Positions 18,519 through 28,389 of a stretch of 41,570 nt of DNA are shown piece after piece. The stretch's first letter is position 1, and every line of letters begins with the position of its first letter. The notes under the pieces were generated by a model. It saw only the letters and a program-made list of their open reading frames with translations, made no database searches and was not told the DNA's origin. Source of the stretch: Verrucomicrobiota bacterium. Lineage in GTDB: Bacteria; Verrucomicrobiota; Verrucomicrobiia; Limisphaerales; J093. The stretch lies in contig JAKLFY010000055.1 of the NCBI GenBank assembly GCA_022710935.1, positions 1-41,570 of the forward strand, written 5' to 3'. A program made the position numbers and the translations under genes.

Positions 18519-19646
18519 GGAAGAATGCTGGCAGGAACAGGCGCGCGGCGCAAGTTCGAGTCATGCGGCTGTCGAGTCATGCGACAGAGCAGGTGAATTG
18601 GGCCTCGGAACGACGGTTCAGACAACCGACGGTCTCGCAAGCTGATGTGACAAGACCGTTGTCTTTCTGCTATCCAATCGGGCACGCCGCGCGAGCGCAA
18701 ACGGGCGCTTTCCGATCGCGAGGTGCGGCTCGACTTCACACGCCCGTCCTGGCCCAATTCTGGCCAATCCAATTCGTGCGGGACGTGAAACGAGTGCGAC
18801 ACCCCAAACACCCAGCAATCAGAAGTCTTCATCTCGGAATCCTTGTGGCATCTCCATGCATGTTTGACCGTCCGAGCGCTCGCGAACCAGGCTCGGCGGA
18901 GGGGAGCTGGTTCTCAGTCCTGGCGCAAGCATCGAGACGATGCATATGATGTTGGGGGACGTCGGGGCAAGCCGAAAAGGGCGTGCTGGAGAGGGTGCGG
19001 GGCTCGCGGCGCCCGAAAGCGAGGGATCGAACTGGGGTCATTCACCAGCAGGTTGGCGACCTTGGCAGCGCGGTCATGGGGGATTCGGCGAACCAGACGC
19101 GCCAGCCCACGCCGGGAGAACGCGTCGGTGTCAATCGTGCGCGGTATGCCCGGCGTGGCTCCGCTTGGCGTCCGATTTGGCACCGATTCCCTGGCGCTTG
19201 ACGGCCCGCGGGATTTGTTGCGTTCATGCCGCCGTCTGCATTTGGGCAGTCCCAAGAGCCCAACAGTTTTGATCTGGATGGTGATGGGCTACGGACCGTC
19301 GTTGTTGCGGTGACAATCCTCATGAGTTCAAGACGGAACATGAAGGGAAACGCAGACAGTCACCCGTCATTCATGAACCGCCCCCGGCTGCACGACCGAA
19401 AACCGTTCGACAGTCCGTTTCCGACTCTGCTACAACGCGCAGACACCACACAGGCACGCTCATGGCAGACCACGAGTCATCGGAATGTTCAGGGGCCAAA
19501 TCGGCAGCGTGGCCCACGCACACCGTTGCCTCGCCCGACGACATCAACGATGAACTGCGGCATCTGCTGGTCATCGTAAGCGCGTGAAAGGCCCACGCGT
19601 GCGCCCGTGGTTTGAACCCGTTCCCATGCTCAGTCGACTTGAACCG
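18519..19646. other. 1.1-kb stretch without a recognisable gene
   Basis: Open frames on both strands here are short, mutually overlapping, and lack family motifs or protein-like composition. The only notable word is GGGGCCAAATCGGC at about 19491-19505, which also opens the 199-bp repeat elements at 23461 and 26223 (there with C/T variation). No tRNA, CRISPR or clear promoter was seen. It may be decayed sequence left by rearrangement. Confidence 0.6.
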
Positions 19647-19723
19647 GCAAACGTCCAACGCTCAACGTTCAACGCAGCGCTTCGCTGAACGTTCAACGTT
19701 GAGCGTCGCACGTTGGACGTTCG
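19647..19723. repeat. Heptad-phased palindrome upstream of the kinase gene
   Basis: Seven-base units such as TCCAACG, CTCAACG, TTCAACG (19654-19674) run into a GC hairpin centre and are then mirrored as the reverse complement (ACGTTCA, ACGTTGA, ACGTTGG, ACGTTCG) up to 19723. The array is both periodic and an imperfect inverted repeat. It ends 21 bases before the kinase start codon, so it may fold in the 5' leader or act as an operator. Confidence 0.7.
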
Positions 19724-19744
19724 ATCCATGTTGAGGACGATGCG

Positions 19745-22700
19745 ATGAATGCCAAGAAGATCTGTCCGTGCTGTGGGAAGCCGCTGCTGCCCAACGCGCC
19801 GGAGGGCCTCTGCCCGGCCTGCCTGATCGGTTCCGGCCTCGCGGGCGTGCCGGACGCGCGCGAAACGCAGGCTGCAACGAGTTCGACGCCCAGGTTCCGC
19901 GCCTTCGGCGACTACGAACTGATCGAAGAAATCGCCCGCGGTGGCATGGGTGTCGTCCACAAAGCCCGCCAGATCAGCCTCAACCGGACTGTCGCGCTCA
20001 AGCTGATCCTCGGCGGCCAGTTGGCCGGGCGCGACCAGGTCCAACGCTTCCGCGCCGAAGCCCAGGCTGCCGCCAATCTCCAGCACCCGAACATCGTCGC
20101 CATTCACGAGGTCGGCGAGCACGCGGGCCAACTCTACTTCTCGATGGACTACATCGAGGGACGGAACCTCGCGGGAGTCATCTCAGATTTGAAATTTGAA
20201 ATTTCAAATTACACGCGAAGCGTGGGGTGGATGAAGACGGTGGCGGAGGCTGTGCACTATGCCCATCAGCACGGCATCCTGCACCGCGACCTCAAGCCGG
20301 CGAACATCATCATCGACCAGAACGACCAACCGCACGTCACTGACTTTGGCCTGGCGAAGCGGCTGGTCGTCCCGCCTTCAGGCGGCCAAGTCAGCATACC
20401 TCCAGGCGCCGATCCAACTTCGCGCGCGGAACCGGCTGAAGCCGGGACCGCGAACGGGACGGACCGCGACCGGCCTGCCTGCCGAAGCCTGCGCCTGTGG
20501 CTGTCCGCACGCAGCAAGGTCGGCGCCGGCAGGTCCCCGGTCGCAGCGGCTGCGGTGCCACCGGACGGCCCCGTGTCCCCCGCCGCCTCCGCCACCCCGG
20601 ACGCGCTGCGCGCCGCGACGTCGCGCGGTCCGGCGGAGCAGTCCGACGGCGCTCGGTGCTCCACTCCCGACTCTCCACCCTCCACTCATCACTCTGAACT
20701 CACTCTGAGCGGCCAGGTCCTCGGTTCGCCCAGTTACCTCTCCCCCGAGCAGGCGGAAGGCAAGCGCGGCACGGTGGGCGTCGCCAGCGACGTGTACTCG
20801 CTCGGGGCCGTTCTGTACCACCTGTTGACGGGCCGTCCCCCGTTCCAAGGCGAGACGCTGACCGCGCTGTTGCGGCAAGTGGTCGAGAACGACCCGGTCG
20901 CGCCACGGCTGTTGAATCCGAGCATTCCGCGTGATCTGGAAACGATCACGTTGAAGTGCCTCGCAAAAGACCAACACCGACGCTACGCGCGTGCCCAGGA
21001 CTTGAGCGACGAACTGGGCCGGTTCCTCGCGAACGAACCGATCCGCGCGCGGCGGGTGAGCCGCGTCGAGCGGTCTTGGCGCTGGTGCCGCCGCAACCCG
21101 AAGCTGGCCGGGGCGCTCGGCTTTGCCGTCTTGACTCTCGTCGTGGGCGTGGCGGGCATCGCGTGGCAATGGCGGCGCGCCCAGGCGGGGGAACTCCTGG
21201 CCCTCCAGCGCGCCTACGTCTCCGACATGGACCTCGCCACCCGCGCTCTGGCCGAAGACGACATTGGTCGCGTACGCGAACTCTTGGACCGCTACCAACC
21301 CACGCCTGGTCACGCATCACGCATCACGGACCACGCCACACTCTCAACTCGCAACCCGCAACTCGCAACTGACTTGCGCGGCTGGGAATGGGCCTACCTC
21401 TGGCAGAAGTCACGCAGTCAGGCGGATTCCCGGTTGTGCACACGGCCCAAGAAGGTGAGCGGTCTGGCGTTCACGGGCGATGGCCAGCGGCTGGTGGTCC
21501 ACGAAGAACACGGTGTCACCCTGGTCTACGATCTGGCGACGCGCCTGCCGGTGCCCGGGTTGGTGCAGACGAACCGGAGCTGGCGCATGGGGTTCTGCCC
21601 CACCAACGACCGGGTCGCCTTCCAGCTCTCGCCCGAACTTGGGGCGAGTGGTGAAGTCCGCATTTGGGATTTGCGGAGCAACGCGATCGCCGCCCAATTC
21701 GACTACGAGAAGGACGACTTTGCTTCTTTCGCGTCTTCGCCTGACGGGCGGTGGCTGGCCGGGGCCGGATATTTTGTTGGTGCCGCGGTGTGGTACGTGG
21801 CAACCGGTGAACGAATCATGAGCATCCCCGCCGAAGCCACAGCCGGGAACCCCTGGACCGGAGCGGTCGCGTTCGACCCGACCGGGCAGTTCCTGGCTGT
21901 CGGCCATCGCGGAAACGGGGTGGTTCGCCTGCACCAAGTGCCGGGTGGATGGATCGAGGCTGAGTGGAAGCTGCCCGCGGACATCGTGCTGGCCTTGGCG
22001 TTCTCCCCGGACGGGCGCTGGCTCGCCGCCTCCGCGCTCACCACGAACCCGGTTGTTCGCGTCTGGCCGCTGCCTGCCGGCGAACCGGTGGAACTGAGCG
22101 GCCAGCGATTGACTCCCTTTGCCCTCGCCTTTGATCCCCGGAGTGAAGTCCTGGCCACCGGCGATGGCCAAATGATCCGGCTCTGGGATTTGCCGGGTGG
22201 AGGCCTCCGCGCCAAGCTGATCGGCCACCGGTCGTCCGTGACGGCCCTGGCCTTTTCGCCCGACGGGCATTGGCTCGCCAGCGGCTCGAGCGCCAGTGGT
22301 TCCGACGAAAGCGAGGTGTTGTTGTGGGACCTTGCCAGGACGAAGCATCCGGCGCAGCCCGACTACCAGGTCCTCAGCAACGTCGGCCTCGTGGCCTTCG
22401 AGCACGAGGCCCGCTCCTTCCTCGCCCTGGCGGACGGGGTGGTCACCCGTTTTGACGTTGACACCCTTCACCCCATCGAACCGCTGCCGGAGTATGGAAC
22501 CAACAACGTGACGTGGGCGGTGTCCTGGGATGGCCAGTGGCTGGCCCACGCGGGGACCAACGGCATGGTTCATCTGTGGGAGCGAGGTGCGCCGCGAGAA
22601 CGGACTGCCTTCTGCCCGTACCCCGGCGACTACCCCGAACCGGGCACCATGCGCCTCTTGGCGCAAGGACGTCTTCTGGCCGCGCGGCCCAACAACACCT

Positions 22701-23329
22701 TCACCGAGCTGCTGCACATCTGGGACACGGTGAGCGGCCAACAGCCCGAGCCCTGGCGCTCGCTCAATGCGGTCCAGCGCGGGGGTTGTATCACGGCCGA
22801 TGCGTCACGGGATGGCCGGTTCCTGGCCACCGGACATAGAGACGGGCGGGTCTTCTTGTGGGAGGCGGTGACCGGCGACCAGTTGGCGCCCTTCGACGCG
22901 CACCGCGGGAAGGTCATGGAAGTGGCCTTCTCGCCCGACGGACGGTGGCTCGCTTCGGCCGGTTGGGATGGGGCCCTGAAGCTCTGGGATGTTCTCAAAC
23001 GCAGCGAAGCCGGGTCGTTCGGCCGCAATGAGACGCCGTGCTACGGCATCACCTTCTCGCCGGATGGACGCCGTGTCGTCAATGGCGGCCTCCTGGGTTC
23101 TCTTTCCGTCGTGATTTGGGATGTCGCAACCCGGCAGCACCTGACCGATCTGGTCGGGCCGGGGGCGTACTTCTACGCTCCTCGGTTTTCGCCGGACGGG
23201 CGGACGCTTGCCGCATGGAAGTGCTATGGAGAAGACCGGATGTGCTTCTGGCGCGTCCGGGCGCTGGAAGACATCGATGCGGAGGACAGGGAGAAGGGAG
23301 AAGGGAAGAGGGAGGAAGGCGGGGAGTGA
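19745..23329 (+). CDS. Ser/Thr protein kinase with C-terminal WD40 propeller and repeat-derived inserts
   Basis: 1194 residues. Order: a small Cys4 zinc finger (CPCC...CPAC, residues 8-28); a Hanks-type kinase with glycine loop EIARGGMGVV (about 64), catalytic Lys 86 in VALKLI, HRD at 180-182, DFG at 200-202 and the SPEQ equivalent of APE at about 332; a membrane helix at about 454-476 (GALGFAVLTLVVGVAGIAW); then roughly a dozen WD40 repeats (many FSPDGRWLA blades) to the C-terminus. Expected: a membrane-anchored sensor kinase with cytosolic catalytic domain. The DFG-to-SPEQ distance is about 130 residues instead of the usual 25-30. The extra piece is built from palindromes, a 60-bp element and 7-nt repeats. 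Two further repeat inserts sit at residues 147-156 and 522-543. The gene ends in GA-rich repeat (EKGEGKREEGGE), its stop falling in a heptad array. Catalytic residues are intact, so it may be active. Confidence 0.93.
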   Translation: MNAKKICPCCGKPLLPNAPEGLCPACLIGSGLAGVPDARETQAATSSTPRFRAFGDYELIEEIARGGMGVVHKARQISLNRTVALKLILGGQLAGRDQVQRFRAEAQAAANLQHPNIVAIHEVGEHAGQLYFSMDYIEGRNLAGVISDLKFEISNYTRSVGWMKTVAEAVHYAHQHGILHRDLKPANIIIDQNDQPHVTDFGLAKRLVVPPSGGQVSIPPGADPTSRAEPAEAGTANGTDRDRPACRSLRLWLSARSKVGAGRSPVAAAAVPPDGPVSPAASATPDALRAATSRGPAEQSDGARCSTPDSPPSTHHSELTLSGQVLGSPSYLSPEQAEGKRGTVGVASDVYSLGAVLYHLLTGRPPFQGETLTALLRQVVENDPVAPRLLNPSIPRDLETITLKCLAKDQHRRYARAQDLSDELGRFLANEPIRARRVSRVERSWRWCRRNPKLAGALGFAVLTLVVGVAGIAWQWRRAQAGELLALQRAYVSDMDLATRALAEDDIGRVRELLDRYQPTPGHASRITDHATLSTRNPQLATDLRGWEWAYLWQKSRSQADSRLCTRPKKVSGLAFTGDGQRLVVHEEHGVTLVYDLATRLPVPGLVQTNRSWRMGFCPTNDRVAFQLSPELGASGEVRIWDLRSNAIAAQFDYEKDDFASFASSPDGRWLAGAGYFVGAAVWYVATGERIMSIPAEATAGNPWTGAVAFDPTGQFLAVGHRGNGVVRLHQVPGGWIEAEWKLPADIVLALAFSPDGRWLAASALTTNPVVRVWPLPAGEPVELSGQRLTPFALAFDPRSEVLATGDGQMIRLWDLPGGGLRAKLIGHRSSVTALAFSPDGHWLASGSSASGSDESEVLLWDLARTKHPAQPDYQVLSNVGLVAFEHEARSFLALADGVVTRFDVDTLHPIEPLPEYGTNNVTWAVSWDGQWLAHAGTNGMVHLWERGAPRERTAFCPYPGDYPEPGTMRLLAQGRLLAARPNNTFTELLHIWDTVSGQQPEPWRSLNAVQRGGCITADASRDGRFLATGHRDGRVFLWEAVTGDQLAPFDAHRGKVMEVAFSPDGRWLASAGWDGALKLWDVLKRSEAGSFGRNETPCYGITFSPDGRRVVNGGLLGSLSVVIWDVATRQHLTDLVGPGAYFYAPRFSPDGRTLAAWKCYGEDRMCFWRVRALEDIDAEDREKGEGKREEGGE
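20184..20211 (+). repeat. AT-rich heptad insert in the kinase gene
   Basis: CAGATTT-GAAATTT-GAAATTT-CAAATTA, four 7-nt units, encoding SDLKFEISNY (residues 147-156) in an otherwise GC-rich gene. It lies between the hinge region and helix alphaE, a loop that tolerates additions. The sharp drop in GC marks it as inserted. Confidence 0.75.
20372..20452 (+). repeat. Two palindromes inside the kinase activation loop
   Basis: CCGCCT-TC-AGGCGG (20372-20385), and a longer stem at 20425-20452 with CGCGG-aa-CCGGCT, loop GA, then AGCCGG-ga-CCGCG. Both are translated (VVPPSGG and SRAEPAEAGTA regions) within the non-kinase insert after DFG. Confidence 0.7.
20474..20533 (+). mobile_element. 60-bp CCTGCCTG element, copy K, in frame in the kinase gene
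   Basis: Begins CCTGCCTGCCGAAGCCTG and ends GGTCGGCGCCGGCAGG, exactly 60 bases, encoding residues 244-263. Its termini match the 60-bp inserts at 23574-23633 (opposite orientation) and 26264-26323 (same orientation), while the middle differs. A length of 60 preserves the reading frame. Confidence 0.75.
20597..20633 (+). repeat. Palindrome in the kinase activation loop
   Basis: Arms CCGGAC (20597-20602) and GTCCGG (20628-20633) are perfectly inverted and continue as GC-rich near-pairing (GCGC/GCGC). It is the third palindrome within the translated insert. Confidence 0.55.
20658..20706 (+). repeat. Heptad array in the kinase activation loop
   Basis: GCTCCAC-TCCCGAC, then TCTCCAC-CCTCCAC, TCATCAC-TCTGAAC and TCACTCT: seven units of 7 nt, six of them ending in AC. 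Translated as STPDSPPSTHHSELTL, immediately before kinase homology resumes at LSGQVLGSPSYLSPEQ. Confidence 0.7.
21309..21371 (+). repeat. Heptad array in the kinase linker
   Basis: Nine 7-nt units from GTCACGC-ATCACGC to GCAACTC-GCAACTG, with AC fixed near the middle of each. 63 bases equals 21 codons, so the frame is kept. It encodes the HASRITDHATLSTRNPQLAT part of the linker between membrane helix and WD40 domain (residues 522-543). Confidence 0.75.
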
Positions 23330-23381
23330 GGCGTGAGGCGTGAAACGTGAAACGTGAGGCATTAAACGTGAGGCGTGAAGG
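23326..23381 (+). repeat. GTGAGGC/GTGAAAC heptad array at the kinase stop codon
   Basis: Eight exact 7-nt units: GTGAGGC twice, GTGAAAC twice, GTGAGGC, ATTAAAC, GTGAGGC, GTGAAGG. The kinase stop TGA (23327-23329) lies in the first unit. The preceding coding bases are a related GGGAGAA-type purine repeat. Confidence 0.85.
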
Positions 23382-23460
23382 GGGAATGGCGGAGCGCCAT
23401 GTTGGCAGCACCCGACTTTGGCCAAGTCTCGCAGGACCGGTGTGCTTCTGATCGGGTAGT

Positions 23461-23659
23461 CGGGGCCAAATCGGCGGCGGGGTCGCGAAGCGTTTGGAGT
23501 GCGTGCGGTTCACCGCCGCTTTCCGAATACAGTGATCGGTGACGTCCCACGCAAAGCGGTGCTGAAGCACGCGCCTGCCTGCGCCGACTTGTCCGCCGAA
23601 GCTCGGGCGAAGGCGGAGGCTTCGGCAGCCAGGCACTCCAAACGCTTCGCGCCTTCCAA
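23461..23659. repeat. 199-bp palindromic element, copy 1
   Basis: Starts CGGGGCCAAATCGGCGGC and ends CGCGCCTTCCAA. Outer stem CGCGAAGCGTTTGGAGTGC (23484-23502) pairs perfectly with 23633-23651. The loop holds smaller hairpins: GCGGT-TC-ACCGC, CCGCTTT...AAAGCGG and GTGCT-GA-AGCAC. Without its 60-bp insert the element is 139 bp. Copy 2 is at 26223-26421, the same total length. It lies about 270 bases upstream of the FG-GAP/ASPIC gene. Confidence 0.85.
23574..23633 (-). mobile_element. 60-bp CCTGCCTG element inside copy 1
   Basis: Read on the minus strand it begins CCTGGCTGCCGAAGCCTCC and ends AGTCGGCGCAGGCAGG, matching copy K over about 23 bases at one end and 14 at the other. It is absent at the equivalent place of copy 2 (26392-26396), where the flanks join directly, so this is a clean insertion without target duplication. 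Confidence 0.8.
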
Positions 23660-23721
23660 GGCTTTCGTGCCCAGGTAGATCTGTGCACCGCTGGCGTGAC
23701 CAGCGATCATGGTGCTCCCAT

Positions 23722-23826
23722 CCAACACCCAACACCCAACATCCAACTTCCAACGCTCAACGCTCAACGCTCAACGCCCGACCCAAAACTCTCAGCCATC
23801 AACCATCAACCATCGACCATCAACTT
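23722..23826. repeat. Fifteen-unit heptad array
   Basis: Fifteen consecutive 7-nt units, e.g. CCAACAC, CCAACAC, CCAACAT, CCAACTT, CCAACGC, TCAACGC three times, later TCAACCA twice and TCGACCA. Phase is unbroken although single units vary. About 30 bases (ACCCAAAACTCTCAGCCA onward) are identical to the array at 26479-26625. Confidence 0.88.
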
Positions 23827-23830
23827 CTTT

Positions 23831-23907
23831 TCACTTTTCTTGTCCGTTCCGCCGCCCGTTTGCGTAGAGGTAGGTAAGGGGCAAAGAGCCCCGAAACAAG
23901 AACGGTT
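23831..23907 (+). promoter_or_regulatory. Shared promoter/5'UTR block, copy 1
   Basis: 23831-23900 aligns without gaps to 26631-26700 (about 50 of 70 identical). Conserved words are TTTCTTGTCC, TGCGTA 15 bases further on, and CCCCGAAACAAG close to the start codon. A hairpin GGGGC-AAAGA-GCCCC (23878-23892) is retained in altered form in the other copy. TTGTCC...GCGTA is in the range expected of an ECF-sigma promoter, but the factor is unknown. Confidence 0.55.
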
Positions 23908-23931
23908 ATGAAGACAAGACTCGCAGTATGA
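23908..23931 (+). other. Seven-codon micro-ORF overlapping the next start (ATGA)
   Basis: ATG 23908 sits where the sister gene has its start (26710) and reads MKTRLAV before a TGA that overlaps ATG 23928. It may be a leader peptide coupling translation, or the scar of a small duplication of the first codons (ATGAAGACAAGACTC versus ATGAAAACCACAAGACTC). Confidence 0.35.
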
Positions 23932-25931
23932 AAACCACAAGACTCATCGGAGTCGTCTCGGTTCTGGTCGCGTCGCACTGGGCTTTGGCCCAGGAGCCGC
24001 CGCAAATCACCACCCAACCCACGAACGCCACGGCCAGCTTGGGCGCGACCGTCCAGTTCAAGGTCATGGCCAAGGCCGGGTCGGCACCCCTGGCGTACTT
24101 CCACTGGCACTTCAAAGACGCACCCCTAGACACCAACGTCAACCGGTCTGCGGCCACGCGCGTCTTGACTTTAACCAACGTCACGCTCGCGCAGGACGGC
24201 CCCTACTTCGCCGTGGTGACCGATACCGCCGGCTTGTCGGCCACCAGCCAGGTCGCCACCCTGACCGTTGACCCCACGTTCACCAAGATCACCACCGGGC
24301 CGGTGGTTGAGGACTACCAGGCCTCGAGTAGCGGCACCTGGTGGGATTACGACCACGACGGCTTCCTGGACCTGCTGGTGGCGCAGGCTTCCGTAGGGCC
24401 AGCCACCAACGTCCTCTATCACGGCCATGGCGATGGCACCTTCGACAAAGTGTCTGACAGCATCATTGTCAAAACACCGGGATGGTGCGACACGGCAACC
24501 GTCGGCGACTTCAACAACGACGGCTTCATCGACCTCTATGTGGCCAATCACGATGGGGTTGACAGCCTCTTTCGCAACGAAGGCCAAGGGCGGTTCACCC
24601 GTCTCACCGCGGCCCAGTGCGGGCGGCCGGTCAGCGACAACGATTTCTCATTTGATGCCACTTGGGTCGATTACGATGGCGATGGTTTCCTGGACCTCTT
24701 CACCGTCAACCTCCAGTACCCGTTCGACACGGGGAGCCGATGCCTCTATCGCAACCGGGGGGACGGGTTCTTCGTCAAGATGACCGCTAACCAAGTGGGC
24801 CCCATCGTCACCGACCCGGCAGGGAATCTCTGGTGTAGCTGGGCCGACTTCGACAACGATGGTTATCCCGATGTCTGGGTGAACAATTGGAGCGGCCTCC
24901 ACCTGCTCTACCACAACAACGGCAACGGCACGTTCTCCCGGCTGACCGAAGGCAGCATCCCCTCTGAGGGATCCGCAAATGTAGTCGGGCTTTGGGGAGA
25001 CTACGATAACGACGGGTTGCTCGACCTGTTTACGCCGGGGGCGTCGGAACTCGGTGGCACTCCCACCGTCAACTCACTTCATCGGAACCTGGGCGGGAAC
25101 CTGTTTGCCAACTTCGCCACAAGTGCCGGGGTATCCCGGAAATCCTACGCGAGCTTTGGGGCCTGGGGTGATTACGACAATGACGGGCATCTGGACCTGT
25201 TTCTTTCCAGATACATGGGGGTACCGAGTGTCCTCTACCGGAACAATGGCGACGGCACGTTCAGCAGCGTCGATGTGGGCAGCCCGCTGATCGACAGCGC
25301 CGTCCGCAACGCCCCCGTTTGGGCCGACTACAACAATGACGGCTTCCTCGATCTCTTCATCGCGTGTGGTCTTACCCAATGGGATCCCCAGTACAATCTC
25401 CTCTACCGGAACAACGGCAATGGCAAGGCATGGCTCAAACTCAACCTCATCGGCATCGCCTCGAACCGCTCGGCCATCGGCGCCAAGGTGCGCGTCAGAG
25501 CCACGATTGGTGGGAAGACCTTCTGGCAGATGCGCGAACTCACGGGGAACACCGGCGCGAGCGGCGGGTATGGCCTGATCCCCCACTTCGGCTTGGGCGA
25601 CGCCGCCAGCGCCGAGTTGGTCAAGATCGAGTGGCCCTCGGGCATCGTCCAGGAACTCCAGAATGTGCCCGTCCGGCAAACGCTGGAGGTCACCGAACAC
25701 CAGAAGGACGCGACCCCGGCCCCGACGTTGACCGCGACGCCCTTGACCGAGGGCGCGGTGCAGTTGACGCTCACCGGTCCGACGAATCTGCGCTACGTGT
25801 TTGAGGCTTCGACCGACCTAGCGCAGTGGACCAAGATCGGCGTGCGCACCAATCTGACCGGCACCGTCGAGTTCACCGACACCCTGGCGGCCAAGTACGC
25901 CCAACGCTTCTATCGCGGCCTGGCGCCGTAG
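23928..25931 (+). CDS. Secreted FG-GAP/VCBS repeat protein with Ig-like and ASPIC/UnbV domains
   Basis: 667 residues. The signal peptide ends ALAQ (about residue 22). An Ig-like domain follows (QITTQPTNATASLGATVQFKV, to about 118). Then about seven FG-GAP/VCBS blades carry calcium-type acidic loops such as DYDHDGFLDL, DFNNDGFIDLYVAN, DYDGDGFLDLF, DYDNDGLLDLF and DYNNDGFLDLF: an integrin-like propeller. Residues about 495-575 are an ASPIC/UnbV (CRTAC1-type) domain (IGAKVRVRATIGGK, HFGLGDAASAELVKIEWPSG). The last 80 residues form a beta module ending RFYRGLAP, with YVFEASTDLAQWTKI, also seen at the ends of two other secreted proteins here. Role: extracellular or surface protein, probably binding calcium and carbohydrate or protein. 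A strong inverted repeat follows the stop. Confidence 0.92.
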   Translation: MKTTRLIGVVSVLVASHWALAQEPPQITTQPTNATASLGATVQFKVMAKAGSAPLAYFHWHFKDAPLDTNVNRSAATRVLTLTNVTLAQDGPYFAVVTDTAGLSATSQVATLTVDPTFTKITTGPVVEDYQASSSGTWWDYDHDGFLDLLVAQASVGPATNVLYHGHGDGTFDKVSDSIIVKTPGWCDTATVGDFNNDGFIDLYVANHDGVDSLFRNEGQGRFTRLTAAQCGRPVSDNDFSFDATWVDYDGDGFLDLFTVNLQYPFDTGSRCLYRNRGDGFFVKMTANQVGPIVTDPAGNLWCSWADFDNDGYPDVWVNNWSGLHLLYHNNGNGTFSRLTEGSIPSEGSANVVGLWGDYDNDGLLDLFTPGASELGGTPTVNSLHRNLGGNLFANFATSAGVSRKSYASFGAWGDYDNDGHLDLFLSRYMGVPSVLYRNNGDGTFSSVDVGSPLIDSAVRNAPVWADYNNDGFLDLFIACGLTQWDPQYNLLYRNNGNGKAWLKLNLIGIASNRSAIGAKVRVRATIGGKTFWQMRELTGNTGASGGYGLIPHFGLGDAASAELVKIEWPSGIVQELQNVPVRQTLEVTEHQKDATPAPTLTATPLTEGAVQLTLTGPTNLRYVFEASTDLAQWTKIGVRTNLTGTVEFTDTLAAKYAQRFYRGLAP

Positions 25932-25951
25932 CCCATAATCAGGCGACTGAA

Positions 25952-26051
25952 ACAACCACGGAAAACACGGATGACACGGATCAAGGACCCGCTTCGGTCT
26001 TTCTCGGGGGGTCACCGGAATCCGTGTTCATCCGTGAAATCCGTGGTTGTC
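25952..26051. repeat. Long inverted repeat (CACGGAT type) after the ASPIC gene
   Basis: Left arm ACAACCACGGAAAACACGG... (25952-25983) and right arm ...TTCATCCGTGAAATCCGTGG (26017-26051) are inverted copies, themselves made of 9-10-nt units containing CACGG. It begins 21 bases after the stop codon and could serve as a transcription-end hairpin. It is of the dispersed-repeat type rather than a classical terminator. Confidence 0.7.
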
Positions 26052-26222
26052 TCATCTGCAACGGTCACTGCGCCTGAAACGTGCAGCGCCGAGGAACGGA
26101 AAACGCAGAGCAGCAAAGCCCATGCGCGTCAAACTCAGCGAGGCGCTTGACTCGGAGTTGAGGACTGGGAGGGCTCGCGGTTACCCAAGTTGTTGGGCCG
26201 CTGTGCCTTGCAGCATGTGGTC

Positions 26223-26421
26223 CGGGGTCAAATCGGCGGCGGGGTCGCGCAGCGTTTGGAGTGCCTGCCTGCCGCGCCGCTGGTGTGTGCCCTCAGCACC
26301 GACGGCGGCACGGCGCAGGCAGGCCTGCGGTTCACCGCCGCTTTCCGCATACAGGGATCGGTGACGTCCCACGCAAAGCGGTGCTGAAGCACACGCACTC
26401 CAAACGCTGCGCGCCATCCAA
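26223..26421. repeat. 199-bp palindromic element, copy 2
   Basis: Same boundaries as copy 1 (CGGGGTCAAATCGGCGGC ... CGCGCCATCCAA). Outer stem CGCGCAGCGTTTGGAGTGC (26246-26264) pairs perfectly with 26395-26413. Compared with copy 1 an A-T pair has become C-G through changes on both arms. It carries its own 60-bp insert, in the other arm, and lies about 290 bases upstream of the beta-propeller gene. Confidence 0.85.
26264..26323 (+). mobile_element. 60-bp CCTGCCTG element inside copy 2
   Basis: Begins CCTGCCTGCCGCGCCGC and ends CGGCGCAGGCAGG, 60 bases. The equivalent site in copy 1 (23502-23503) is empty and joins without gain or loss. On the inserted strand the left junction reads TTTGGAGTG|CCTG, the same junction used (on the other strand) by the insert in copy 1. 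Confidence 0.8.
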
Positions 26422-26478
26422 ACCGCTCGTGTCAACGTCGCTCTGTGGGCTGCTCGCCTCCTCAACCCGATCGTAGCG

Positions 26479-26625
26479 GTCAACGTCCAACGTCCAACGT
26501 CCAACGCTCAACGTCCAACGCTCAACGCCCAACGCTCAACGCCCAACCCAAAACTCTCAGCCATCAACCATCAACCACCCACCATCCACCTTTGAACCGG
26601 GAACCCTGAACTCCCAACCCTCACT
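26479..26625. repeat. Twenty-one-unit heptad array
   Basis: 147 bases in unbroken 7-nt phase: GTCAACG, TCCAACG three times, CTCAACG, TCCAACG, CTCAACG, CCCAACG and so on to CGGGAAC, CCTGAAC, TCCCAAC, CCTCACT. AAC or CAC occupies positions 4-6 of nearly every unit. It ends 6 bases before the shared 5'UTR block. Confidence 0.9.
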
Positions 26626-26630
26626 TTTTT

Positions 26631-26709
26631 TCACCTTTCTTGTCCCGTCCGTTGCTGGTCTGCGTACAGATGAATAGGGGGGCGAAGACCCCGAAACAAG
26701 AAGACAGTT
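26631..26709 (+). promoter_or_regulatory. Shared promoter/5'UTR block, copy 2
   Basis: Gapless counterpart of 23831-23900: TTTCTTGTCC, TGCGTA and CCCCGAAACAAG are kept. The hairpin here is GGGG...CCCC around GCGAAGA (26677-26692). The start codon ATGAAGAC follows 9 bases after the conserved end. There is no clear Shine-Dalgarno sequence. Confidence 0.55.
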
Positions 26710-28389
26710 ATGAAGACCAGGTCAAAAACACACATCCTGTTAGCTATCAGCGGTTTGGCGCTGGCGACGGCGCCGGGCTACGCACAAACCAACGGTCCAC
26801 TGCCCATTATCTGGCAGGCGGCGTACGGTCCCGGAATGAGCGGCGGGGTCGGATACGCTCTGCCGTACGACTTCATCCAGACGTCTGACGGCAGTTTCCT
26901 CATTGCGGGAACTTGTGAAGGCCCGGCCAACGGCATCCGGACAGAGCCCTTTTGTCTCAGTGCCGACGCCTGGGTGATCAAGATCGACGCTCAGGGCCAA
27001 CGCCAATGGGACAAGTCCTGTGGAGGTGGAACCACCTGGGCACCAGGCGATTATGCCCATCGTGTATTCCTCACTCCGGACGGAGGATTCCTGCTTGCAG
27101 GCTTCACGACATCCGCACCCGCCTGCTGCAAAACGGCGCCGCTGCGGGGCCCGAGTGGATACGCTTATCCCAACAATCTCTGGGTTGTGCGCTACGACGC
27201 GAATGACGACAAGCTCTGGGACCAAAGCTACCTTCCCGAGGGTCTCAGCGGATGCTATGGGTTTGATTTCACGCCGACAGAGGACGGCGGTTACCTCGGA
27301 TGCGGACCCGGTACATCCGGTCAGATTACGGCTACTGCGGTTTACGGTGGGATGGCCAAGTTCGATGCCCAAGGACAGCAGCTCTGGACCAAGACCGTCG
27401 GCTGCGCGCGTACCTCCGATATTACGTATCTTCTTGTGATTCGAAACACCTCGGACGGCGGCTTCATCGTCGCCGGCTGCTCGAACGCCCAACCGTGCGC
27501 CGACAAAACCAGCCCTTACTTCGGTGGCCATGACTCGAATATCCCTCACCTGGGTTCAGACTTCTGGGTAGTTCGGTTTGACGCGCAGCAGAACAAGTTG
27601 TGGGACAAATCGTACGGTGGCGCGGCTTCGGAATGCGCGCGTGACATTCACCCGCTCGCGGACGGCGGTTTCATGGTCTTCGGCAACTCCCAGTCGCTCC
27701 CGGTCACCGACCCCAGCAAGGGCACCAAAACCAGCAGGCGGTACGGCAACCAGGACTTCTGGGTCGTCCGGATCGACGCCGAGGGCAATCAGCTCTGGGA
27801 CAAGTCCTATGGAGGCGTCAGCGACGACATCTGCACCTGCGCCGAGCCGATGCCGGATGGCGGCTGGCTACTTTCAGGCACCTCATGTTCACGCCCGAGT
27901 GGCAACAAGACAGCCCCACATTTCGGCGGCTGGGACTTCTGGATCGTGCGGATCGACGATCAAGGCAACAAGCTCTGGGATCAGTCCTTCGGCGGCAGGG
28001 GGGACGAAGGAAAGATCTGGCGGACCTTTCAACCACCGGTATTCATGCGTGAACGGATCAGACGGACAACTGACGGGGGCTTTCTGCTGACAGGGTTCTC
28101 CCAGTCACCGCCCGGCGGCTTGAAAACGGCGCCGCTGATCAGCCAAGGGGACTTCTGGGTCCTCAAACTGGGTCCCGAACCGCCCTCGTTGCGGGGCGAG
28201 TTCACGGCGGAAGGTCAATTCCAGCTCTGCCTCATCGCCCCGCCGGAGTTGGAGCACACCATCCAGGGGTCCGCTGATTTGGTCACGTGGACGGATCTCG
28301 CGACGCTGGGGCCGAACCCGGACGGTAAGGAGTATTGGAACGATCCGGAGAAGCTCGCGCATCGGTTTTATCGAGCGGCGAGGAAGTGA
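26710..28389 (+). CDS. Secreted beta-propeller repeat protein
   Basis: 559 residues with a signal peptide (HILLAISGLALATAPGYAQ). The body consists of six or seven blades of a recurrent unit, DFWVVRIDAEGNQLWDKSYGG followed by a TPDGGFLLAG-type strand, familiar from secreted propellers of Bacteroidetes and PVC bacteria. Several Cys pairs (PACCK, CGGG, CTC) may form disulfides. The C-terminus again carries the beta module HTIQGSADLVTWTDL...RFYRAARK found in the ASPIC and PA14-like proteins. No enzymatic motif is visible; a binding or surface role is likely. It shares its upstream repeat block and 5'UTR with the ASPIC gene, so the two are probably co-regulated. Confidence 0.88.
   Translation: MKTRSKTHILLAISGLALATAPGYAQTNGPLPIIWQAAYGPGMSGGVGYALPYDFIQTSDGSFLIAGTCEGPANGIRTEPFCLSADAWVIKIDAQGQRQWDKSCGGGTTWAPGDYAHRVFLTPDGGFLLAGFTTSAPACCKTAPLRGPSGYAYPNNLWVVRYDANDDKLWDQSYLPEGLSGCYGFDFTPTEDGGYLGCGPGTSGQITATAVYGGMAKFDAQGQQLWTKTVGCARTSDITYLLVIRNTSDGGFIVAGCSNAQPCADKTSPYFGGHDSNIPHLGSDFWVVRFDAQQNKLWDKSYGGAASECARDIHPLADGGFMVFGNSQSLPVTDPSKGTKTSRRYGNQDFWVVRIDAEGNQLWDKSYGGVSDDICTCAEPMPDGGWLLSGTSCSRPSGNKTAPHFGGWDFWIVRIDDQGNKLWDQSFGGRGDEGKIWRTFQPPVFMRERIRRTTDGGFLLTGFSQSPPGGLKTAPLISQGDFWVLKLGPEPPSLRGEFTAEGQFQLCLIAPPELEHTIQGSADLVTWTDLATLGPNPDGKEYWNDPEKLAHRFYRAARK

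Follow-up and report, generated by a model that had tools for sequence, protein, structure and literature searches.

The 41,570-nucleotide (nt) stretch of DNA analysed here (assembly GCA_022710935.1, contig JAKLFY010000055.1, from a Verrucomicrobiota bacterium; called the window below) contains several runs of tandem 7-nt units, or heptads. These arrays are real, non-random and present genome-wide, yet they belong to a known class. We think that they are probably heptanucleotide tandem-repeat loci, of the type of the long simple sequence repeats (SSRs) or the short tandemly repeated repetitive (STRR) sequences, which slip in steps of 7 nt and drift in sequence, and no function is needed to explain them. 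Novel here are the degenerate form made up of several words, the test of the step of seven between species, the examples inside genes, and the link with a dispersed 57-nt unit.

The seven-nucleotide phase in the window and beyond

A sequence-only reading of the window had proposed a strict 7-nt phase at three places, and at all three the phase turned out to be real. Identity at lag 7 is 0.78 at 23722-23826 (array A), 0.71 at 26479-26625 (array B) and 0.71 at 23326-23381, against maxima of 0.47, 0.45 and 0.49, respectively, in 1,000 dinucleotide shuffles of each stretch, so the head-to-tail units exceed what chance produces. Identity is also high at lags 14, 21 and 28 and is close to background at lags 6 and 8. 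When the whole window is scanned in 84-nt windows, only lags 7, 14, 21 and 28 reach an identity of 0.60. Array A consists of 15 units on the forward strand (CCAACAC ... TCAACGC ... TCAACCA), is intergenic between a kinase open reading frame (ORF) and an ASPIC/UnbV ORF, and contains no off-register step. Array B, on the same strand, has about 20 units. According to the unit list, AAC or CAC stands at one fixed position in units 1 to 16; from about 26591 the core comes one base later in four units (TTTGAAC, CGGGAAC, CCTGAAC and TCCCAAC), after which the original register returns. This single step, later undone, contradicts the earlier statement that the long arrays show no slip in register.

The third stretch had been described as GTGARRC-type heptads. 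Its periodicity is confirmed and its extent is not, as the G-rich heptads (AGGGAGA and GTGAGGC/GTGAAAC; assigned to the minus strand, which is the C-rich one) run from 23288 to 23389 with a lag-7 segment score of 41 and span the stop codon of the kinase ORF (19745-23329). Four more heptad stretches, all on the forward strand, had been missed. Three of them were recognised as lag-7 segments and by comparison with paralogs, and are housed in the kinase ORF, together with the beginning of the G-rich array: site 1 with ATTTGAA/ATTTCAA heptads (20180-20213), site 2 with CTCCACT-type heptads (20647-20701), which falls between two matched parts of the kinase domain, and site 3 with TCACGCA/CGCAACT heptads (21310-21370). 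The fourth, at 19642-19724, is an inverted pair of CAAC and GTTG heptads, identified from its lag-7 segment, repeats and folding; it is predicted to fold into a hairpin as a single strand (z -4.5).

The excess of lag 7 is not limited to the window. From the genome that contains it (G000; 7.52 Mb in 259 contigs) we sampled 842 kb, taken from long contigs of which several were already known to hold repeat matches, and scored every lag from 4 to 30. At a score of at least 20 there were 15 segments at lag 7, 11, 8 and 7 segments at lags 14, 21 and 28, and 0 to 3 at each of lags 4 to 6 and 8 to 13. In this sample, 7 nt is therefore over-represented compared to other unit lengths. The array words in this genome include the CAAC type, TTTCAAA, CTCCGAA/CTCCCAT, GGGAGAT, TCACGCA and GTGAGGC. 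Lag 7 also leads in samples from relatives in the same family and from Cyanobacteria, Bacteroidota, Gemmatimonadota and Chloroflexi; these samples were selected via a heptad pattern and indicate breadth, not frequency. A pattern scan of 84,980 species returned, among the matches listed, Bacteroidota, Cyanobacteria, Chloroflexi, Planctomycetota, Acidobacteriota, Gemmatimonadota, Pseudomonadota and Verrucomicrobiota.

Length change, word drift and register

Array lengths were also compared between relatives. Two genomes of one genus, G010 and G013, align at about 91% over array-bearing stretches, and their orthologous spacers carry arrays at the same sites and with the same word order (for example GGGCGAA, GTTGGAA, GTTGGAT, GTTGGAC and then GTCC-words), with differences in copy number and in single letters. 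We measured the length differences with anchors outside the arrays in the eight spacers that hold arrays in both genomes and obtained -63, -31, -21, 0, +7, +14, +28 and +43. Five of the seven non-zero differences are multiples of 7, compared to 6 of 39 control indels of at least 3 nt elsewhere (p = 0.001), so that in this small sample length varies between relatives in unit steps. Extending the alignment added no further array pairs, as synteny was broken. One G010/G013 spacer shows a difference of about 116 nt between GTTCACT copies, which is compatible with an insertion or a deletion. A search for an empty site corresponding to one G010 locus in G005, G012 and G002 found only a diverged, array-less spacer in G005. 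Array DNA is more divergent than other non-coding DNA (0.163 versus 0.105).

Paralogs within the genome point in the same direction. Two cas4-like sequences, so named from their appearance and not from a family search, have ATTTCAA heptads at an equivalent place (L066 480-522 and 8976-9011, which is G000:C1 near 180.5 and 189.0 kb). The partial duplicate has exactly one heptad fewer than its partner and is out of frame behind the gap; the in-frame heptads of the Cas4-like gene encode the peptide ISNFKSQISNF. The kinase paralogs on contigs C13 and C206 carry different heptads at the same sites, which are protein loops, as the kinase of the window. At site 3, where the window has TCACGCA/CGCAACT, both paralogs (L320 and L325) have CATCAAC words, a G013 homolog carries a few units of the GGAAGTC type and the distant G010 homolog (L317) has none. 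Site 1 has the same length in all five genes and the words differ (ATTTGAA versus ATTTCGG), being altered alike in neighbouring units. This concerted change is more easily explained by copying of units along the array than by their independent mutation. Word drift also shows ordered intermediates.

The multiples-of-7 differences, the one-heptad gap in the cas4 pair and the word swaps between paralogs together support 7-nt slippage combined with mutation and local homogenisation, and the earlier suggestion that arrays grow by 7-nt slippage and then diverge is upheld by the same results and by the word intermediates. We propose that two or more similar heptads would serve as the seed of an array. 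Whole heptads would then be gained or lost through misaligned pairing during DNA synthesis; the steps in multiples of 7 are observed, and the mispairing is what may underlie them. Point mutation would alter single units, and later slippage would copy an altered unit along the array, so that the word drifts and the phase is kept, a sequence of events to which the ordered intermediates and the concerted change in the paralogs partly testify. Arrays would survive where insertions do little harm, such as spacers, protein loops and gene ends, and they could spread through duplication of spacers and, in the genus of the host, with the dispersed 57-nt unit, which is associated with arrays and may have moved with them. 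The step of seven itself may be a property of DNA synthesis.

The register is kept over long distances, and this does not require a special force because non-coding indels are rare: between G010 and G013 the indel/substitution ratio in non-coding DNA is 0.067. At this ratio, about one off-register step is expected in arrays with some tens of unit mismatches, and array A has none and array B one. Selection on spacing, which the sequence-only reading had raised, therefore gains no support.

Some results weigh against slippage and neutral drift as the whole explanation. The sample of orthologs is small (eight spacers), and two of the length differences are not multiples of 7. In a rough simulation, illustrative only and with arbitrary parameters, slippage had to occur several times as often as substitution before identity came near the observed values. 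No series leading from a seed to an array was seen. In the family of the host, moreover, the CAAC core varies less than neutral drift predicts. In 25 of 50 arrays of this family the four positions that vary least are adjacent to one another, where 10 such arrays are expected, and the variable positions cluster beside the core. The samples from other phyla gave 7 of 32 contiguous cases against 6.4 expected, and a general 4-nt core in all phyla was rejected on this basis. The constancy of CAAC hints at a constraint or at annealing through the core. It is not proof of selection, because arrays that share a word family do not count as independent cases.

Surroundings of the arrays and alternative explanations

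Arrays A and B sit in paralogous spacers (23461-23905 and 26223-26702), and because both lie in copies of one spacer they are not independent. Each spacer begins with a copy of a dispersed hairpin repeat (GCGTTTGGAGTGC ... GCACTCCAAACGC) on the forward strand, located upstream of array A at 23461-23695 (repeats D5, D7 and D9) and, as the repeat comparison showed, upstream of array B at 26223-26457. Its arms are CGCGAAGCGTTTGGAGTGC and GCACTCCAAACGCTTCGCG. It occurs many times in the genome, in most cases with no heptads close by. As most copies have no array within 1.5 kb, this repeat was rejected as a general carrier of arrays. Downstream of the arrays follow forward-strand leaders (TTTTCACTTTTCTTGTCC ... 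CCCCGAAACAAGAA; repeat D6) at 23823-23905 and 26623-26702 that are 74% identical, and each ends in CCCCGAAACAAGAA directly ahead of a start codon. The two arrays have the string CCCAAAACTCTCAGCCATCAACCATCAACCA in common. A third copy of the spacer, on contig C13 at about 94.8-95.2 kb, lies ahead of a homologous gene start and has about 6 heptads. The three copies of this spacer thus differ in having about 15, 20 and 6 units. The spacer as a query gave 62 matches in its own genome, part of them to the array portion. That the arrays stem from a single duplication, which had been put forward as a possible refutation of a general phenomenon, holds for the two long arrays but not for those in other parts of the genome or in other phyla.

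The genes next to these spacers are all on the forward strand. The ORF ahead of array A encodes a Ser/Thr protein kinase with a WD40 propeller (Pfam Pkinase and WD40). Array A is followed by a gene for an FG-GAP/ASPIC-UnbV protein (23928-25931; Pfam), and array B by a 559-amino-acid ORF (26710-28389) for which Pfam gave no confident family. Rfam had no matches within the window.

A different kind of element accompanies many arrays elsewhere. A palindrome-ended 57-nt unit, GGTTCATGG-(about 38 nt)-CCATGAACC, stands directly in front of many CAAC arrays of G000 and of the same-genus genome G001 (examples are found in L347-L376, such as L353 1501-1557). There are at least 46 copies in G000 and at least 44 in G001; these are lower bounds, as part of the candidates were scored. 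In the window, the hairpin at 19642-19724 opens with GAACCGGCAAACG, the tail of this unit (window 19641-19653). The unit often occurs as two direct copies that enclose variable cargo and are separated by 110-160 nt. Spread of arrays by these units is likely, given the observed association, and the units would have had to move for this to occur. It is also conceivable, although we consider it unlikely, that a mobile family resembling repetitive extragenic palindromic (REP) sequences or miniature inverted-repeat transposable elements (MITEs) has the arrays as its body, so that the 57-nt unit moves together with a heptad body and the arrays were transposed in. The copy numbers fit this, as do the single-strand folding of the unit (z -3.9), the presence of Y1-type transposase genes, the heptads found directly behind the unit in fixed orientation in about 17 of 30 inspected copies, and the unit found upstream of 11-12 of 22 distinct CAAC arrays. 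The combination of dispersal and terminal inverted repeats, however, characterises the 57-nt unit and not the heptads. The unit is absent from about half of the CAAC arrays, from both long arrays of the window, from other word families and from in-gene arrays, and many of its copies bear other cargo, namely GTAGCC palindromes or GATTACG hexads, in some cases enclosed by two direct copies. A Y1_Tnp match was found in all 10 relatives searched, whether or not they had array-pattern matches, and a target-site duplication was not established. REP sequences, the related REPINs (REP doublets forming hairpins) and MITEs are dispersed short palindromes, and in this respect both the 57-nt unit and the hairpin repeat upstream of array A resemble them; movement, target sites and a dedicated transposase would be further, putative points of likeness.

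The genomic position of the arrays bears on a possible regulatory role. In three genomes, whose samples are 74-86% coding, 72 of 81 arrays lie mainly outside genes and 59 of 81 between co-directional genes. The suggested correlation with gene starts thus held for spacers and failed for the starts themselves: within co-directional spacers, 35 of 58 arrays are nearer to a start than to a stop (p 0.15), 33 of 58 follow the gene strand, and GC skew agreed in 31 of 67, none of which is significant. In favour of a protein or RNA regulator that recognises NNNCAAC at 7-nt intervals close to gene starts are the strong enrichment between co-directional genes and, in the family of the host, a CAAC core that varies less than the remaining three positions; a regulatory role has been proposed in print for the TAACTGA repeats of Beggiatoaceae (PMC4679880). 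The lack of a significant preference for starts or gene strand makes such a platform highly unlikely, as do the orthologous arrays that alter length and words freely, the arrays found within ORFs and at gene ends, and the word families with unrelated cores that coexist in one array. The resemblance of the commonest words (GTTCAAC, GCTCAAC and ATCCAAC) to the integron core site RYYYAAC/GTTRRRY would make the repeated unit attC-like, and the genome does encode integron integrases. The distribution of integrases rules this out as far as we can judge, leaving it next to no probability: G001 has arrays and the 57-nt unit with no integrase over the cut-off, whereas G002 has a 442-bit integrase and no array-pattern matches, so that sites and integrase do not co-occur. 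Furthermore, other phyla often have C or T at the first position, many word families do not match RYYYAAC, and the 57-nt unit was seen by eye to lack attC L boxes. A canonical G-quadruplex was rejected for the CAAC arrays, which have no G3 runs that could form one; four G3 runs with loops of 1-7 nt occur only in the purine stretch 23288-23389 and not in arrays A and B.

Several other repeats came to light during these comparisons. Octad arrays are a minor class in G010 and G013, with the words GGTGGGAC/GGTGAGAC (L274 4006-4149, L273 18266-18366 and L248 4532-4630), and in places they adjoin a conserved GGTAGGAGTCGAGGTGACGAGACTC motif. The planctomycete Zavarzinella formosa has (CCCTAAA)n arrays, which is the plant telomere word (G059:C1:394350, C10:246536 and 246616; L280 and L283), including one inverted pair about 80 bp apart. 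The heptad arrays at L251 17199-17330 and L291 13261-13400 switch strand from G-rich to C-rich or form inverted pairs; such strand-switching arrays look as though synthesis reversed direction.

Known heptanucleotide repeats and the question of seven

Heptanucleotides are reported to be the most abundant class of long SSR in most prokaryotic genomes studied (Mrazek 2007, as cited in PMC4679880 and PMC4692102). According to these papers, the arrays described here resemble the prokaryotic long heptanucleotide SSRs in that the 7-nt unit is the commonest, the distribution among relatives is patchy, most loci are non-coding and length changes in unit steps. They differ in having degenerate units and several word families per array, so that searches for perfect repeats would miss much of them. 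Near-perfect, identical units, as in a strict SSR, were not found (lag-7 identity 0.71-0.78). PMC4692102 includes heterogeneous (GGGANTN)n arrays among the SSRs, and because the units differ we file the arrays as a degenerate member of the SSRs in the wider sense. Close counterparts are the heptads GGGAATC and GGGGA(C/T)T of Xanthomonas and Nostoc, which are heterogeneous, mostly intergenic and without known function (Rehm 2015, PMC4692102); two Xanthomonas species keep them at the same spacers with varying length and sequence (PMC4692102). The likeness extends to heterogeneous heptads, shared spacers that vary between related species, inverted pairs and the absence of a function found, whereas the CAAC arrays have neither quadruplex-capable G3 runs nor a strand preference relative to genes. 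The TAACTGA repeats of Beggiatoaceae, Cyanobacteria and Bacteroidetes (MacGregor 2015, PMC4679880) are likewise intergenic, have an AAC core and occur in several phyla, but TAACTGA is a fixed word near start codons, whereas the present arrays have drifting words and no significant preference for starts. We found no paper on such arrays in this lineage, a weak negative since the library searched was limited. The cyanobacterial STRR heptanucleotides (Mazel 1990, as cited in PMC4692102) are reportedly tandem 7-nt units dispersed in the genome. Tandem, dispersed 7-nt units are thus common to both systems, and the STRR sequences have fixed words and belong to another lineage.

The excess of seven-base repeats was reported in 2007, and PMC4679880 and PMC4692102 give no tested cause for it. 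The contact length of DNA polymerase has been proposed (Mrazek 2007, via the same two papers), and the mechanism measuring 7 nt that had been suggested for the window corresponds to this published guess. One could imagine that several phyla have in common a generator of 7-nt steps, in the form of a polymerase or a template-switching activity that holds on by a short core and makes an error-prone copy of the heptad before. We regard this as improbable. If it were true, one trans-acting factor would make genomes array-rich or array-free. Such a factor might be suggested by the sharp difference in array matches within one genus: among G002, G010, G012 and G013 (genus g2), two genomes have 43 and 95 CAAC array matches and the other two have none. 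This contrast is a candidate for a search for the factor.

The arrays also carry a warning for annotation, as in-gene heptads add loops and can cause frameshifts. This lineage offers arrays that are of sufficient age to be aligned between species and are variable enough for steps to be counted, and its congeners differ sharply in CAAC-pattern matches. The question of why the step is seven is thus open to comparative and experimental tests.

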